Assembly: GCA_903871235.1 (NCBI GenBank)
Contig: CAIQGA010000159.1
Location: 1 to 64,000, forward strand
Origin: an uncultured Chlorobiaceae bacterium
GTDB lineage: Bacteria; Bacteroidota; Chlorobiia; Chlorobiales; Chlorobiaceae
Direction of reading: 5' to 3'
DNA length: 64,000 nt
Of this stretch, positions 4,788-13,136 are shown in pieces (within the stretch, counting starts at the first letter, position 1; the number at the start of each line of letters is the position of its first letter). The translations under genes and the position numbers were made by a program. The notes beneath the pieces were generated by a model, which had not been told where the DNA came from, made no database searches, and worked only from the letters and a program-made list of their open reading frames with translations.

Positions 4788-5003
4788 TTAAACCGCCAGC
4801 GTCACCATCACGGCAGCATAGCCGACCAACCAGAGCACCTGCACCCGAATCTCCATCAATCCTGACCCTTTGAGCATGACGCGGCGCATGATATCGACAA
4901 AGTGGCGGACGGGGTTGATCAAGGTCATGGTCTGGGCCCAGTGAGGCATACTTTCAATGGCGATCTCCGTCACACTCAACACCTGCTGCTTCCAGAATAT
5001 TCG
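4788..5003 (-). pseudogene. C-terminal stump of an ABC-2 type transporter permease
   Basis: The frame gives FWKQQVLSVTEIAIESMP, then HWAQTMTLINPVRHFVDIMR and a final hydrophobic segment VLWLVGYAAVMVTLAV. That is the ending of YhhJ/YbhS-type ABC-2 permeases, whose normal length is about 370 residues. Only about 70 residues remain. The upstream part is gone and acpS begins a few bases away, so this is a deletion remnant rather than a small gene. It ends in a stop at 4788. Confidence 0.65.
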
Positions 5004-5029
5004 TGAGAGATGTATAAAGCTTTTGCCCG

Positions 5030-5392
5030 TTATACCCCGTCAAGCAGCGCTGTAGCAATCGCTGAATGGCGGTCATGGGCAATAGAGATTTTTATTGTGC
5101 AACCGGAAGGAAAAAGCGCCGCACAAAGAGGGCGAACAAAGGGGCGACCGCGTTCATCATTGAGTATCTCAAAGCTCTTCCAGTGTACACCTTCGGAAAA
5201 GCCTGTGCCGAGTGCCTTGACGACCGCCTCTTTGGCTGCAAACCTGCCGGCAATACTGGCGACCACCTGTGACTTTTGCAGGCAGATTGCGATCTCCTCT
5301 TCTGTCAGAACGCGCTGGAGAAACTTCACCCCGTAGCAGTTGTAGAGCCTTTCAATCCGGTCAAGATCGACAATATCGACTCCAATCTCCAT
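5030..5392 (-). CDS. acpS: Holo-[acyl-carrier-protein] synthase
   Basis: This 120-aa protein transfers 4'-phosphopantetheine from CoA to acyl carrier protein in the cytoplasm, activating fatty-acid synthesis. The family motifs are present: MEIGVDIVDLDRIE at the N-terminus with the metal-binding Asp, and RFAAKEAVVKALGTG near residues 50-65 with the metal-binding Glu. Length is normal for AcpS. It lies 14 bp downstream of nadC on the same strand, so the two are probably co-transcribed. The C-terminus SIAHDRHSAIATALL is the expected last strand. Confidence 0.93.
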   Translation of the reverse strand: MEIGVDIVDLDRIERLYNCYGVKFLQRVLTEEEIAICLQKSQVVASIAGRFAAKEAVVKALGTGFSEGVHWKSFEILNDERGRPFVRPLCAALFPSGCTIKISIAHDRHSAIATALLDGV

Positions 5393-5406
5393 GTTGTTTT
5401 TCCCGT

Positions 5407-6294
5407 TCAGGCAAGTGCTATGGTCATTGAAAGATCAAGCGCCTTGACGCTGTGCGTCAGCTCTCCGATTGAGATAAAGTCAACGCCGGTTTCGGCAACT
5501 TCCGCTACATTGTGCATGCCGATATTGCCGGAAGCTTCAAGGATAGCCGCACTCTGGCCACTTCGGACAAAAGCGACAGCCTCCTTCAACAGTTCAAGAG
5601 TAAAATTGTCGAGAAGAATAATATCCGGCTGGCAAACAAGAGCCTGCTGCAACTCTTTCATTGAACGTACCTCGACTTCAATTTTCACCTCAAGCTTTTG
5701 CTCTTCGCGATACCTCTGCGCCCGATGAATGGCCTTGGCGACGCCTCCGGATGCGTCAATATGATTATCCTTTATGAGAATCATGTCGAAGAGACCGAAA
5801 CGGTGATTGGTCCCTCCGCCAATCCTGACAGCCTCCTTGTCGAAATAACGAAGCCCCGGAACGGTTTTTCGGGTATCAAGAATTTTTGTGCCGGTGTGGC
5901 TTATTTTGTCAACATAACTTCTCGTTCTTGTCGCAATTCCCGACATACGCTGCAGAAAATTAAGTGTAGTACGTTCACCTATCAGGAGCGGAGCAAGTTT
6001 TCCCGTCACTTCAAGAAGGGTTTGACCACAAAAAACTTTTTCGCCGTCAAGACAATGCAGCACAACAGAGAGGTTATGGTCACAGGCGGCAAAAACCTGA
6101 CGGGCAACTTCTGCCCCGCCGAGGATACCATCCTCCTTTGCCCTGACGACGGCACTGCCCCCCTGACGGGGATCAATGGTAGCAAGGGTGGTAATATCAC
6201 CCGTGTAACGATCCTCCTCGAGCGCGAGCATAATGGCCCTTGCACGACACCCTTCATAAAAATCATTACAATCCCTGTTTTTCATGATTGCCAT
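5407..6294 (-). CDS. nadC: Nicotinate-nucleotide pyrophosphorylase (quinolinate phosphoribosyltransferase)
   Basis: This 295-aa enzyme converts quinolinate and PRPP to nicotinate mononucleotide in NAD synthesis. Visible landmarks are the open N-terminal domain (EEDRYTGDITTLATIDP), the core LNFLQRMSGIATRT, KILDTRKTVPGLRYFDKEAV with the catalytic Lys/Arg cluster, RIGGGTNHRFGLFDMILIKDNH, and the C-terminal barrel strands ending ISIGELTHSVKALDLSM. It is complete and of usual length. It heads a two-gene unit with acpS. The start follows a short intergenic region of about 280 bp shared with the divergent YopX-like gene. Confidence 0.95.
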   Translation of the reverse strand: MAIMKNRDCNDFYEGCRARAIMLALEEDRYTGDITTLATIDPRQGGSAVVRAKEDGILGGAEVARQVFAACDHNLSVVLHCLDGEKVFCGQTLLEVTGKLAPLLIGERTTLNFLQRMSGIATRTRSYVDKISHTGTKILDTRKTVPGLRYFDKEAVRIGGGTNHRFGLFDMILIKDNHIDASGGVAKAIHRAQRYREEQKLEVKIEVEVRSMKELQQALVCQPDIILLDNFTLELLKEAVAFVRSGQSAAILEASGNIGMHNVAEVAETGVDFISIGELTHSVKALDLSMTIALA

Positions 6295-6575
6295 TCTTCA
6301 ATACATTGAAAAAAAATCACTCTATAACCCTCAAGGTAGTGAATTCGCCAATACCCTTGTATAAAAAAATCAACCCGTTGGCACAACGAAACCCTGAAAC
6401 AACCATGACTGCTCATTGGCAAACAGCAAACCCTCTTGAGGATGTAATAAAATGGCATGTTGTAGAAGGAGAGAGAGAATTGTTTATATTAGGCGAAGCG
6501 ATGGGGGCAGGTGTCGCCTTATAATGATCTCGAAGCACTGCCCGGTTTCGGGGATTTTTTTTGTCAGAAACACTC

Positions 6576-6914
6576 ATGGATACCAACAAAATAAAATTTA
6601 AAGCGTTATTTCAGGACGTTGCATCACTTCAGGATATCTGGAAGTCCTCTACAGTCAATAACCGGGATGTCGATTTTCTAAAGTTCAGGCAGCGCTCTGA
6701 ATGGCTGCAGTTTACCGGACTCAATGACAAGGATGGTCATGAAATTTACGAAGGCGATCTGCTGAAATGGGAGGGCCTGATTGTTGAAGTTGTTTTTGAA
6801 TCCGGAAGTTTTAAAGTGCTCAATGACGGCAGCTCCGACATGCTCTTGTGGTTTTGTTTGCCCGAATGCAAGATTGTCGGCAACAAATACGAAAAGAAAA
6901 GGGTCAAACCCTGA
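6576..6914 (+). CDS. YopX-like domain protein
   Basis: This protein of about 112 residues contains [20 protein letters not shown], the core of the YopX fold (usually QYTGLKDKNGKEIYEGDI). YopX-type proteins are mostly found in phages and prophages; their function is unknown. An upstream alternative start at 6561 adds five residues; I prefer the ATG at 6576 (MDTNKIKF). No other phage genes are nearby, so it is an isolated cargo gene or a domesticated one. Upstream, 6295-6575 contains no gene I can support. Confidence 0.6.
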
Positions 6915-7933: not shown

Positions 7934-9088
7934 TCAGTTGGCAAAGGTGATATTCAGGTTTCCTTCAGCAAAGTCGGCCCCTTCGGTTTTGCGGCCAACA
8001 AGGACATTGGGCAAAATAATGCTTTTGCGGAAGTTATTGATATCAACCAGCAATTCATCACCCTTGATATTGACATTGAGTTTCTTTACCTCAACGTTCG
8101 GCAGGTAGAGACTCAGCACATATTTTCCGTTTATTTTCTCAAGCATCTGGGTTTTATCATCCGTGTAGAGGATATCCGCTGGATTGACTTCGCCAAACAT
8201 CTCCTGGCTCAAATGATAGAGACGCTCAATATTGATGATTTCTGCCGTTGACTGTTTTACCCTGAAAATCGGCACCGGATAAAAGCAATTTTCAATCACC
8301 CTGAGATATTTCGTCTGGATATCAATAAGGCTCTGGAGGTAACTGTCAGTTGAGCTTGCAGGAAGAATCTTGTTGACAATGGCAGCATCAAGCTTGTAAC
8401 CAAAAAGATTAAGGTAGGTTTGAACGCGCAAAGCCTCCTTGATGACCATATTTTCAGGGTTAAGGACAACGCGGAAGGTGGTTATGGATTTATCCTGAAG
8501 CATGGCATGAAGCTCTTTCATGTGCGAATTCACCTCCGGCATAAGCTTGAAGATATTTTTCTTTGGCATGAACTTGCTCAAAAGCGGAGCGGCAAAACCA
8601 ATGGCCTTTGAATGCCATCCACCAATTTTATCGGCATACCATCCGTACGATTCGGGCATTCCGAGCAAGCGCATGGTCTCACCGGTCGGAGCTGCATCAA
8701 CAACAACCACATCATAATCGCCTGACTTGGCCGCTTTCCAGATGTAACGCAAGCTGATCATCTCTTCCATACCCGGCATGATGGCAAGCTCTTCAGCTAC
8801 AACCTCATTGGCGCCGTCATGCATTAAAATCGATGAAAAATAGGAATACAGTTCACCCCAGTTCTCCCTTATTTCAGCCAGAACATTCACCTCCATGGCA
8901 AAAAGATTCTTTTCAACCTCCACCGGCGTCGAAGAGAGCTCGGTGCTCAAAGCATCGGCAAGACTGTGCGCCACATCAGTACTCATGATCAAAACCCGCT
9001 GTCCCCTTCGGGCTATTGCGGTTGCTGATGAAGCTGAAACGGTAGTCTTTCCTACCCCTCCTTTACCCAAGTAAAGAATAATTCTCAT
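7934..9088 (-). CDS. ArsA/Get3-type ATPase with C-terminal HSP20-like domain (second copy)
   Basis: This 384-aa protein has the deviant Walker A motif GKGGVGKTT at residues 8-16, the switch I motif [12 protein letters not shown] (STDPAH in the family) and switch [20 protein letters not shown] (usually DTAPTGHTLR). After residue 300 the ATPase core gives way to a small beta-rich domain ([20 protein letters not shown], then GDELLVDI), matching the HSP20-like tail of Chlorobi ArsA proteins. Classical ArsA is two ATPase halves; this is a single half, as in Get3, which dimerises and delivers hydrophobic tail-anchored proteins. No arsenic gene is nearby. It is the last gene of the csm locus, 70 bp after the 471-aa unknown gene. 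A role in chlorosome protein handling is inferred, not shown. Confidence 0.88.
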
Positions 9089-9158: not shown

Positions 9159-10574
9159 TTACCCTGGCTCCTTGTCGGTCAGGCGAGCACTGTCAGGAGC
9201 GCCCTCTTCGTCACCAGGAGAGTCATCCAGACTCATCATATTTTTCACAATTGATGGAATCTCACCATCATGAGATGTAATGGTAATCGTTTTGCGCTTG
9301 GGAACTCCATCACCTTCAAGGCCGTCCTCTTTCACTCCTGATTCCACAGATGGCTCTGCGCCCCCCTCTGCAGATTCGTTTGAAGAGAGAGCACTGCTGA
9401 AACAATCGTCATTGGGCGTTACATCGTCATCGCTTTTGATCTGAATACTCTTTCTTCTGAAATGACGGTCAGTATCGTCATCTTCATCGTGCGATTGACC
9501 GGGAGGTTGATCATGCAGCAATTCATCATCCAATCCTGTCGTATCCACTTTTGGCGAAGGGCGTGGTGCCTTTTTCTTTGAGCTTTCGCTAAAGCTTGAT
9601 GAGAGGCGCAAAAGCTTACTAACAGAGCCAATCATCCCGTCATTTTTGACGGCTGTCTTAACAATATTGATGACAAAACGTTCTGCTTGAGGATTGTCGG
9701 CTATGCTGTTGAGCAATTCATTAAGCGCTGTAAGCATACCGGGAACATGCTGTAAATCACTTTTAACCTGATCACGAATCTTGAACGGGGTATCACCAAT
9801 AATCTCCTTGAGAGAACCGGTAAATTTTTTAATTGACGCCGGATCGGTAGGAAGCAGACTCTCAATTCCCCTGATAAAATCAGCCGGAGAAAACCCTTCC
9901 GAACCCTCTGCCGGGCCCTGCGCTCCCCCGGGCATAGCTCCACCCTGCTGTGCACCCCTGTCATCCGGAGGGTAACCAATGGAAGCCTTGTATTGCTCAA
10001 GAAGATCCTGACCATAACCGATATGACTCTCCCGAGGAGCAGAATCTGAAGCATCAAAGCGAAGAGAGATGGCCCGAGGCAAACAGACGCTTCTTGCGCC
10101 CCGCAAAATAAGATGAGAAACTTCATCAGGAATATCGCTCCGGTAATTAAGACCAAGGCGCTCCTCGATGACCGATTCAATAACCGTATGAAGCCTGGTA
10201 ATAAGCTCGGCTTCCCTCAGCTCAACCATATCAAAAATAACATAGACAGGGTCCTTCTCCTCGCGGCGAACCTTAAAATTAAGCGTCGCAAAATCGTGAT
10301 CCTTGTTCCGGCTGCTCACCGTAACGGAACCAAGATTAAACCGGTCGAGATAATCTTTATTCGATCCCCTCGCCCAGAAGTAAACCGCCTTGTCGGTGTA
10401 GATCAGATAATCCTGAAAGGCAATATTACCAACGCGCTCCTGATGTGATTCGTAAAAAACCCCTTCAAAAAATGCAACAGGATTTTCACCGGCATTCATG
10501 AGCCCCTTCTGAAAAAACTCAGCGACATCACCCTGCTCAGTCTGCGCCGAAACATACAACGATAAATTAGCCAT
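9159..10574 (-). CDS. Conserved protein of unknown function with PH-like N-domain and acidic C-terminal tail
   Basis: I do not recognise a named family for this 471-aa protein. Residues about 30-140 ([16 protein letters not shown], then [20 protein letters not shown]) look like a bacterial PH-like domain of the YokE sort. Residues 190-235 are rich in Gly, Gln and Pro ([18 protein letters not shown]). Residues 235-340 form helices ([12 protein letters not shown], then [20 protein letters not shown]). The tail from 345 is highly charged and acidic ([11 protein letters not shown]) with two short similar strands, [11 protein letters not shown] and [11 protein letters not shown]. No signal peptide or membrane segment is visible. 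It sits between csmA and an ArsA-like ATPase and is probably part of the same regulon. Function unknown. Confidence 0.75.
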
Positions 10575-10694
10575 TACCCATACCCGTTCACTTGATACTG
10601 ATTAGCACGCCGAACCTAAATTTATGAAAATTTTATAATAAAGAGAAATCACCCGACAAAACAGGGAGCGACCCAAGGGCATGAAAACAAAAAA

Positions 10695-10724
10695 GGCAGT
10701 GAAAGCTTTAACGTTTTCACTGCC
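10695..10724 (-). terminator. Terminator of the csmC-csmA transcript
   Basis: A 10-bp perfect stem, GGCAGTGAAA with TTTCACTGCC, has a 10-nt loop and six T on the minus strand. It lies 30 bp after csmA, so the abundant csmCA message probably ends here and the 471-aa gene (start 10574) needs its own promoter or read-through. Confidence 0.85.
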
Positions 10725-10753
10725 TGAGAAAAGAGCATGATTCTCTACTCTAC

Positions 10754-11008
10754 TTACTCTGCGAACTTTGACTCTACTGCCTTGGAAGGAACGGCATAGC
10801 CAGAAAGCTCAGGTGACGAACCGCGAAGGCTTGAGCCGACACTGCCACCAATGTTTCCGTAAGCGTTGCGATTGATTCTCATGGTACCTTTGCCCAAAGA
10901 ATCAAACAACAGACCAACAGTCTCCCAATGCCCCTCAACCATCACTTCAAAAATGCGACCGGCTGCAGAAAGGATATCGGTAAATACGCCTCCACCACTT
11001 ACACTCAT
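10754..11008 (-). CDS. csmA: Chlorosome envelope protein A (baseplate bacteriochlorophyll a protein)
   Basis: This 84-aa precursor forms the paracrystalline baseplate of the chlorosome and binds bacteriochlorophyll a. The diagnostic sequence is [20 protein letters not shown] followed by [20 protein letters not shown]; the single His in GHWE is the presumed pigment ligand. In the family the precursor is cut near [16 protein letters not shown], and the tail ([20 protein letters not shown]) matches the removed peptide. The ATG has a strong Shine-Dalgarno (AAGGGGG, 4 nt spacer). It follows csmC by 141 bp and precedes a strong terminator. Confidence 0.97.
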
Positions 11009-11149: not shown

Positions 11150-11569
11150 CTATCTTTTTACCGGGCCTTTCTGGAAAGAACCAGCAAAATTTTTGACAAC
11201 TTCGGAAGCGGAAACCCCTGCATCACCAACAGCCGTAGCAGCATTCCCTGTTGCATTTTCAACGGTTTCAACTGCACTGACATAGAGTTCACTGGCAGTT
11301 CTTGATGCATCCTTGACGGTAATGGCAACGCGGTCAAGAGTCTCGCCAACAACGCCACTGGTACTGCCAAGCAGATTGCCAATGCCCGAAGCATCAACAA
11401 CAGCACCAACCGTACCGACGACCGTGTCCAAAAGATTACCGGCAAGATTCAAACTGCCGACAACAGCACTCTGACCAGTTAAAAGCACACTTTCAGCAAG
11501 GAACGTAAGGCGATCAATAAATTCAAGCTCCTTAAAATCTTTACGCAAATTCTGATACGATTCCGACAT
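11150..11569 (-). CDS. csmC: Chlorosome envelope protein C
   Basis: This 139-aa protein begins [20 protein letters not shown]. The middle is hydrophobic and repetitive in Val, Gly and Ala ([20 protein letters not shown], then [20 protein letters not shown]), and the C-terminus ([19 protein letters not shown] in part) is Ala/Val rich. These features and its place directly upstream of csmA identify CsmC, a component of the chlorosome envelope. The frame starts 10 codons earlier at 11599, but the ATG at 11569 has GGAGAG 5 nt upstream and is the better start. csmC and csmA are probably one transcript. Confidence 0.9.
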
Positions 11570-11699: not shown

Positions 11700-12926
11700 T
11701 TATCCCCGGTCGTAAGCTTTCTGCTCCTTTTGCTGCCGGCTTTGCTCCTGGCGATTAAGGTCGAAAGGAATGTGCAGCCATTTATCTTTGAAGACAGCAT
11801 CTCCCGGCTCAAGCCCCGTCAGGCTGATCGGAAGCGTGATGATCTTGCGCTGATTGCCAATCTGGACAAACAGCTCATCACCGGTTACCCATACATCGAT
11901 ATCAACAGGGTTTGCAAACATAAGCTTCAACTGCACCTCATAGACATCACCGTTGCGGACAAACTTTATCGGCGGCTCGTCATACATCATGTCGGAGGGA
12001 TCGCTGTCGCCGTACATATCTTTGGCAAACAACTCAAGTGACTTGAGACCAACAATTTCCTGCTCGTACATCCTCAGCTTTTTGACCGGAAGAGGAGAAA
12101 AACCCTCTTCGATCTCTCCAAGGTACTTCTGCTGAATCGCTTTCCAATTCTCCAGATAACCACTGTCCTCTTTTGTATCAAGCAGCTTGTTAACCAGCAC
12201 CATATCCACCTTGAAGCCGTAAAGGTTCAGATAGGTCAAGGCGCGCATGGTCTCCTTGATCGACATTTTTTCAGCATTCATGACCAGACGCACCGTCGAC
12301 TTCTGATTATCCGTCAAAATCTCGCGAATATCTTCAAGCTCGTCGAAAACCTGGTCAACCGACTCAACAGCATCAGCCGGAGGAATAAAAAATGCGATTT
12401 TATCGGACATTCTTGAAAGAGGCTTGCTGAGCGGCTTAATCAAATATTTATTGACATTTTTGATCGCCTTCATACCCCAGGCAAGGGTATCCGGAAGTGA
12501 CAGGAGCCTGAGGGTTTCACCCGTCGGGGCCGTATCGAGCACCAGAACATCGTAGAGTCCGGAAGCTTTATAACGCTTTACCCTCAAAAGGGAGAAAAGC
12601 TCTTCCATACCGGGCAGGATAGTCATTTCATCGGCCATGACCCCCGAAATCCCCTGGGCCATAAAAACCTTTGTGTAGTATTTCTGCACAGCATGCCAGT
12701 TCTGCTTCAAATCAACATAGGGATTGACCTCAATAGCATCAAGATTCTCCCTGATTTTGGTCGGTTCGGCGCCAAGAGGGAGGTTGAACGAATCCGAAAG
12801 GCTGTGAGCGGGATCGGTTGAAAGGACAAGTGTACGATAACCAAGTTGTGACAAGCGAACTGCTGTAGCCGCAGAGACACTGGTTTTGCCTACCCCGCCT
12901 TTTCCTGTAAAAGTTAAAATACGCAT
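11700..12926 (-). CDS. ArsA/Get3-type ATPase with C-terminal HSP20-like domain (first copy)
   Basis: This protein of 408 residues opens [20 protein letters not shown] (deviant Walker A), followed by VLSTDPAHSLSDSFNLPLGA and VLDTAPTGETLRLLSLPDTL. These are closer to canonical Get3/ArsA switches than those of the second copy at 7934. Two CxxC cysteines of eukaryotic Get3 are absent. From about residue 320 there is an HSP20-like beta domain (YEVQLKLMFANPVDIDVWVT) and a charged tail (RQEQSRQQKEQKAYDRG). It is the first gene of the minus-strand csm locus, 130 bp before csmC. I chose the ATG at 12926 because upstream codons to 12983 lack family similarity. Target clients are unknown; proximity suggests the Csm proteins. 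Confidence 0.88.
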   Translation of the reverse strand: MRILTFTGKGGVGKTSVSAATAVRLSQLGYRTLVLSTDPAHSLSDSFNLPLGAEPTKIRENLDAIEVNPYVDLKQNWHAVQKYYTKVFMAQGISGVMADEMTILPGMEELFSLLRVKRYKASGLYDVLVLDTAPTGETLRLLSLPDTLAWGMKAIKNVNKYLIKPLSKPLSRMSDKIAFFIPPADAVESVDQVFDELEDIREILTDNQKSTVRLVMNAEKMSIKETMRALTYLNLYGFKVDMVLVNKLLDTKEDSGYLENWKAIQQKYLGEIEEGFSPLPVKKLRMYEQEIVGLKSLELFAKDMYGDSDPSDMMYDEPPIKFVRNGDVYEVQLKLMFANPVDIDVWVTGDELFVQIGNQRKIITLPISLTGLEPGDAVFKDKWLHIPFDLNRQEQSRQQKEQKAYDRG

Positions 12927-13136
12927 GAACCGGACATTGGTTTTATGGACGCTGAGGGAAAAGTCAGAAATCAGAAAAAGCAAAAGATATCACTCTGAGC
13001 TGACACTACAAAAGATTCAACAGAGACAGTTCTTGCAAGGTTAAAAATTTTAAGTTTTTTATCTCACACAAGGAGCTTGCAAATGAGCCTTTTGCTCACT
13101 TAATTGAACACAAGTCCAATAACGATTATCACCCTC

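Follow-up and report, generated by a model that had tools for sequence, protein, structure and literature searches.

Organisation of the csm locus

The window analysed here, a stretch of 64,000 nucleotides from an uncultured Chlorobiaceae bacterium, contains at positions 9159–10574 an open reading frame with exactly these bounds and an ATG start codon, which encodes an unnamed protein of 471 amino acids with a PH-like part and a repeat-bearing tail (all features of the window described below lie on its minus strand unless indicated otherwise). Comparison with four close relatives yielded dN/dS values of 0.03–0.08 in the PH domain (residues 1–171), 0.03–0.05 in the helical domain (residues 229–330) and 0.31–0.37 in the acidic tail, and, judged from the coding sequences, the gene is under purifying selection. 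It is located 179 bp downstream of csmA (10754–11008; PF02043, 119 bits), which encodes the chlorosome baseplate protein, and 70 bp upstream of the gene for a Get3d-type ATPase (ATPase 1, 7934–9088). Upstream of csmA lies csmC (11150–11569; PF11098, 199 bits), encoding a chlorosome envelope protein with the likely start MSESYQ, preceded by the gene for a second Get3d-type ATPase of the same architecture (ATPase 2, 11700–12983). The 471-aa protein matches neither the PF02043 (CsmA) nor the PF11098 (CsmC) profile, which its neighbours do match. The intrinsic terminator that a first-pass annotation had placed behind csmA was recovered between this gene and the 471-aa gene (10694–10725) as an 11-pair stem followed by a T run, with a z-score of −3.3 for the fold relative to shuffled sequences. 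Upstream promoter matches were not more frequent than expected by chance, and no Rfam elements were found near the 471-aa gene.

The five genes follow the order Get3d2–csmC–csmA–471-aa gene–Get3d1 on one strand, and this order is kept across the Chlorobiaceae; it recurs in two further families, represented by eight genomes, and in a fourth family of the Chlorobiales the contig ends just after the 471-aa gene. The position in the csm locus beside csmA, already remarked upon in the first-pass annotation, is therefore a fixed linkage. In the window the block is flanked by acpS, nadC, folB, folK, pyrK, ssb and holA, which are absent beside it in distant genomes (compared mostly over 4–7 kb of flanking DNA) except at locus L107, where acpS, nadC, folB and folK adjoin the block. 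Since the flanking genes mostly change and the block stays, the block itself looks selected, and this conservation of the block alone is the strongest evidence for a shared function.

The distant families carry an extra small gene of 79–114 aa between csmC and csmA (L112, 6779–7123, plus strand; L106, 9345–9584, minus strand), no counterpart of which was seen in the block of the Chlorobiaceae; the gene product contains the pattern FxxxMxxxExxxFxxxGAxDT and may encode an undescribed envelope protein. Between nadC and folB the window has an ORF of the phage-associated YopX family (6561–6914, plus strand), whereas none is listed at the equivalent place in locus L149.

Flanking Get3d-type ATPases

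In both flanking ATPases, whose assignment also draws on Get3/ArsA structures, an ArsA_ATPase domain (PF02374) and a C-terminal alpha-crystallin domain (PF17886, ArsA_HSP20) were detected above cut-off, and their alpha-crystallin domains are highly conserved. This combination is the architecture that defines Get3d (PMC10248533), the type to which both proteins are here assigned by domain architecture. Reports of Get3d range from photosynthetic bacteria up to the chloroplasts of plants; it is described as conserved in green sulfur bacteria and has no known partner, and its alpha-crystallin domain shows no oligomerisation features and packs against the Get3 dimer (PMC10248533). The 471-aa protein, unlike these two proteins, is not an ATPase, and is proposed below as the missing partner of Get3d. 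The first-pass annotation missed that the conserved block includes these ATPases and that they bear alpha-crystallin domains.

Domain structure of the 471-aa protein

An AlphaFold model built with 47 sequences (mean pLDDT of 63 over the whole protein) displays a confident N-terminal domain and low confidence elsewhere. The N-terminal domain (residues 1–171; 10062–10574) comprises seven strands and a closing C-terminal helix (residues 119–140), with pLDDT values mostly of 80–97, and contains the blocks YLWARGxxKDYLDRF and FYExxxERVG, which are near-invariant in the alignment of four families. Foldseek searches against the PDB matched it to domains of the PH/PTB superfold (probability 1.00, E about 1e-3), the best match being 4tyz (E 5.7e-4, target-normalised TM of 0.66), with further matches to the Lam6 PH-like domain (5yqr), hSac2 (4xuu) and the TBC1D23 PH domain (8qqf). 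The seven-stranded barrel with a capping C-terminal helix is common to these domains and the modelled structure, by which the PH-like fold previously proposed for this region is confirmed; identity to them is about 12–18%, however, without a sequence family match, and the PH-like part here continues into a helical domain and a repeat-bearing tail. Sequence searches of Pfam, NCBIfam, PHROGs and the PDB did not return a family match to the 471-aa protein, in keeping with the earlier remark that it fits no known family, and the PH-family profiles of Pfam-A gave zero matches for the protein, 47 relatives and five distant-family members.

The PH-like domain is followed by a conserved 14-residue helix motif (residues 185–198; 9981–10022), termed the LLEQYK motif, which reads xYGxxLLExxK in distant families, and by the Gly/Pro-rich hinge described in the first-pass annotation, which is indeed present at about residues 199–230 (9885–9980; pLDDT about 40) and is variable in length. 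Next is a conserved helical domain (residues 231–330; 9585–9884) with the stretches PFKxRDQVKxDLQHVP, LNELL and TAVKNDG, whose helices are predicted at low confidence (pLDDT of 53 when the domain is modelled alone). The PH-like and helical halves are both conserved across all four Chlorobiales families. As a correction to the first-pass annotation, residues 235–345 represent the helical domain and its edge rather than the acidic tail, which extends over residues 331–471 (9162–9584); it is disordered (pLDDT mostly below 50) and, as had been claimed, strongly acidic (25% D/E versus 12% K/R).

A repeated motif in the acidic tail

The twin strands KSIQIK and KTITIT, which had been singled out in the first-pass annotation, are real, but they are two copies of one repeated motif with the consensus RRKK-I-x-I-K-(S/A)-(D/E)-(D/E). 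In the window these are RRKSIQIK (residues 373–380; 9435–9458) and KRKTITIT (residues 426–433; 9276–9299), the latter directly followed by a short helix of 10 residues (9222–9251; AlphaFold and alignment). The motif is far above chance, with 218 matches in the tails of 75 distinct proteins versus 11.5 expected from shuffled tails. In families f2–f4 the motif mostly occurs once, at the C-terminus or close to it (twice in L029); Chlorobium sequences mostly carry two or three copies, and those of the Chlorobaculum type can reach seven. The copies are most often spaced about 50–54 residues apart, and longer tails contain more of them (Spearman 0.79). A short helix (KxMMSxD or RKLMSYD) follows one copy in many Chlorobiaceae, and the alignment shows 2–3 repeats of this strand-helix unit in Chlorobaculum-type sequences.

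With its alternating isoleucines or valines in a disordered segment, the motif is of the I-x-I type, which in the disordered extensions of small heat-shock proteins (sHSPs) binds the beta4/beta8 groove of alpha-crystallin domains (PMC6791718). The likeness to sHSP C-terminal extensions includes the single near-terminal copy in most deep-branching relatives, whereas here the motif belongs to a separate protein, follows basic residues and occurs in up to seven copies. Repeated short motifs at fairly regular spacing also characterise multivalent disordered scaffolds such as EPYC1 and CsoS2. The tail resembles these in its disorder and in its repeated, fairly regularly spaced short motifs, but has no known sequence relation to them, and the 471-aa protein additionally possesses a folded PH-like half.

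Distribution

When a profile of the protein was searched against genomes sampled from the phylum, 89 of the 98 belonging to the Chlorobiales were positive and all 296 others negative. Genuine loss of the gene from the nine Chlorobiales without a match was considered and rejected in favour of assembly gaps, which are likelier: seven of these genomes lack csmC as well, one (G093) has a contig that stops within csmA, and in the last (G057) the contig stops 289 bp past csmA. All Chlorobiales genomes of the sample whose assembly spans this site thus carry the gene. The expectation that the gene would be present in chlorosome-bearing genomes and absent elsewhere is supported as far as tested, presence having been assessed inside the Chlorobiales and absence in the other genomes of the phylum: within the phylum, the protein is confined to chlorosome-bearing Chlorobiales. 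The distant carriers tested also have csmA and fmoA, although co-occurrence cannot separate trait from ancestry as all carriers form one clade. A scan of named genomes with exact peptide stretches returned only Chlorobiales but missed distant Chlorobiales too, and thus says nothing on remote homologues elsewhere. No plasmid homologue of the protein was found, nor any literature under the guessed locus tag CT1941.

Proposed role and alternative explanations

The 471-aa protein is a good candidate for a missing chlorosome assembly factor. It is possible, with a likelihood somewhat short of even, that it acts as an adaptor or scaffold for assembly of the Chlorobiales baseplate, the I-x-I motifs of its tail docking on the alpha-crystallin domains of Get3d. 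The folded half (PH-like domain, LLEQYK motif and helical domain) would bind a chlorosome or membrane component, and the disordered acidic tail would display one to seven RRKKIxIK motifs, each of which may fit, as a short I-x-I strand, into a beta4/beta8 groove in the manner of sHSP motifs. As receptors we propose the alpha-crystallin domains of Get3d ATPases 1 and 2, whose genes bracket the 471-aa gene, csmA and csmC; such docking in trans is suggested by the presence of an I-x-I tail and two alpha-crystallin ATPases in one block. The tail could thereby gather the Get3d ATPases, whose relatives shield hydrophobic membrane segments, at the growing baseplate, where CsmA and CsmC would enter the chlorosome envelope.

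Several observations made at the sequence level argue for the adaptor: the kept five-gene order, the distribution (89/98 versus 0/296), the conserved alpha-crystallin domains, the excess of motifs (218 versus 11.5) and the finding that no neighbour with an RRKKIxIK tail lies beside the other Get3d copies examined. The single near-C-terminal motif of most f2–f4 members, as in sHSP extensions, is by analogy consistent with the same reading. Conversely, given the strongly basic nature of the motif, its target could be acidic or lipid surfaces instead of the groove, and presence of the gene is confounded with phylogeny, the carriers being one clade. Neither CsmA nor CsmC is, to our knowledge, known as a tail-anchored protein, which also counts against an adaptor. 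Furthermore, the groove of Get3d may not be free, because the alpha-crystallin domain packs on its own dimer (PMC10248533).

A scaffold role, as suggested in the first-pass annotation, suits a disordered tail with repeated motifs, yet the presence of two alpha-crystallin ATPases in the same block points to a Get3d adaptor rather than to a purely structural envelope scaffold; the earlier interpretation as a whole is thus partly supported, and the Get3d adaptor is the more specific and more testable reading. As a purely structural component, the protein would hold its PH-like half on the chlorosome or inner membrane and directly bind CsmA or other envelope proteins through its basic strands, setting baseplate order or chlorosome size, with the neighbouring Get3d proteins acting separately on the same clients. 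Such a role would agree with the adjacency to csmA in all families and with fairly regular repeats whose number rises with tail length, as in multivalent scaffolds, but it is unlikely: the Chlorobaculum tepidum list of envelope proteins (CsmBCDEFHIJX; PMC9316378) does not include the protein, csmA ends in its own terminator, and the conserved Get3d genes would be left unexplained. A role other than assembly, peculiar to this clade (reaction centre or FMO attachment, nucleic-acid binding via the basic strands, or regulation), with the gene kept at the locus for co-expression, is likewise improbable. Since the distant carriers have both fmoA and csmA, a role is not assignable from co-occurrence alone; conservation of the five-gene block while its flanks change favours a partner inside the block. 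We regard as very unlikely that the protein regulates Get3d by mimicry, the tail sequence FRRKSIQIK imitating a strand that is conserved in the alpha-crystallin domains (NNFRKSI/NQRKI) and so displacing the domain from its Get4-like site on the ATPase dimer. The resemblance of the two is visible and, in the Get3d dimer, the alpha-crystallin domain does occupy the Get4 site (PMC10248533), but the string match is short and was judged by eye, and the contact-making strand could be another.

If the Get3d adaptor reading is true, it would explain what the alpha-crystallin domain of Get3d is for. The wider proposal, that the protein is the first dedicated Get3d partner, a PH-domain adaptor docking via an I-x-I tail and revealing a GET-like route into the monolayer envelope of the chlorosome, is somewhat doubtful. 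The construction of the chlorosome is not settled, and a conserved gene that links it to Get3d makes both questions directly testable, Chlorobaculum tepidum being a genetically tractable bacterium for such tests. In addition, the 'ArsA' genes of green sulfur bacteria, which have been read as arsenite exporters (PMC11269200), may include antenna-assembly factors.

Further Get3d copies

About five ArsA-type ATPases with alpha-crystallin domains were observed in each Chlorobiales genome examined (G000, G064, G056 and G026), and the csm locus accounts for only two of these. A further Get3d copy in G056, a genome of the Chlorobaculum type, is separated by about 4 kb from a gene resembling csmE (945–1193 and 4840–6189 of locus L145), a possible second link between Get3d and the chlorosome.
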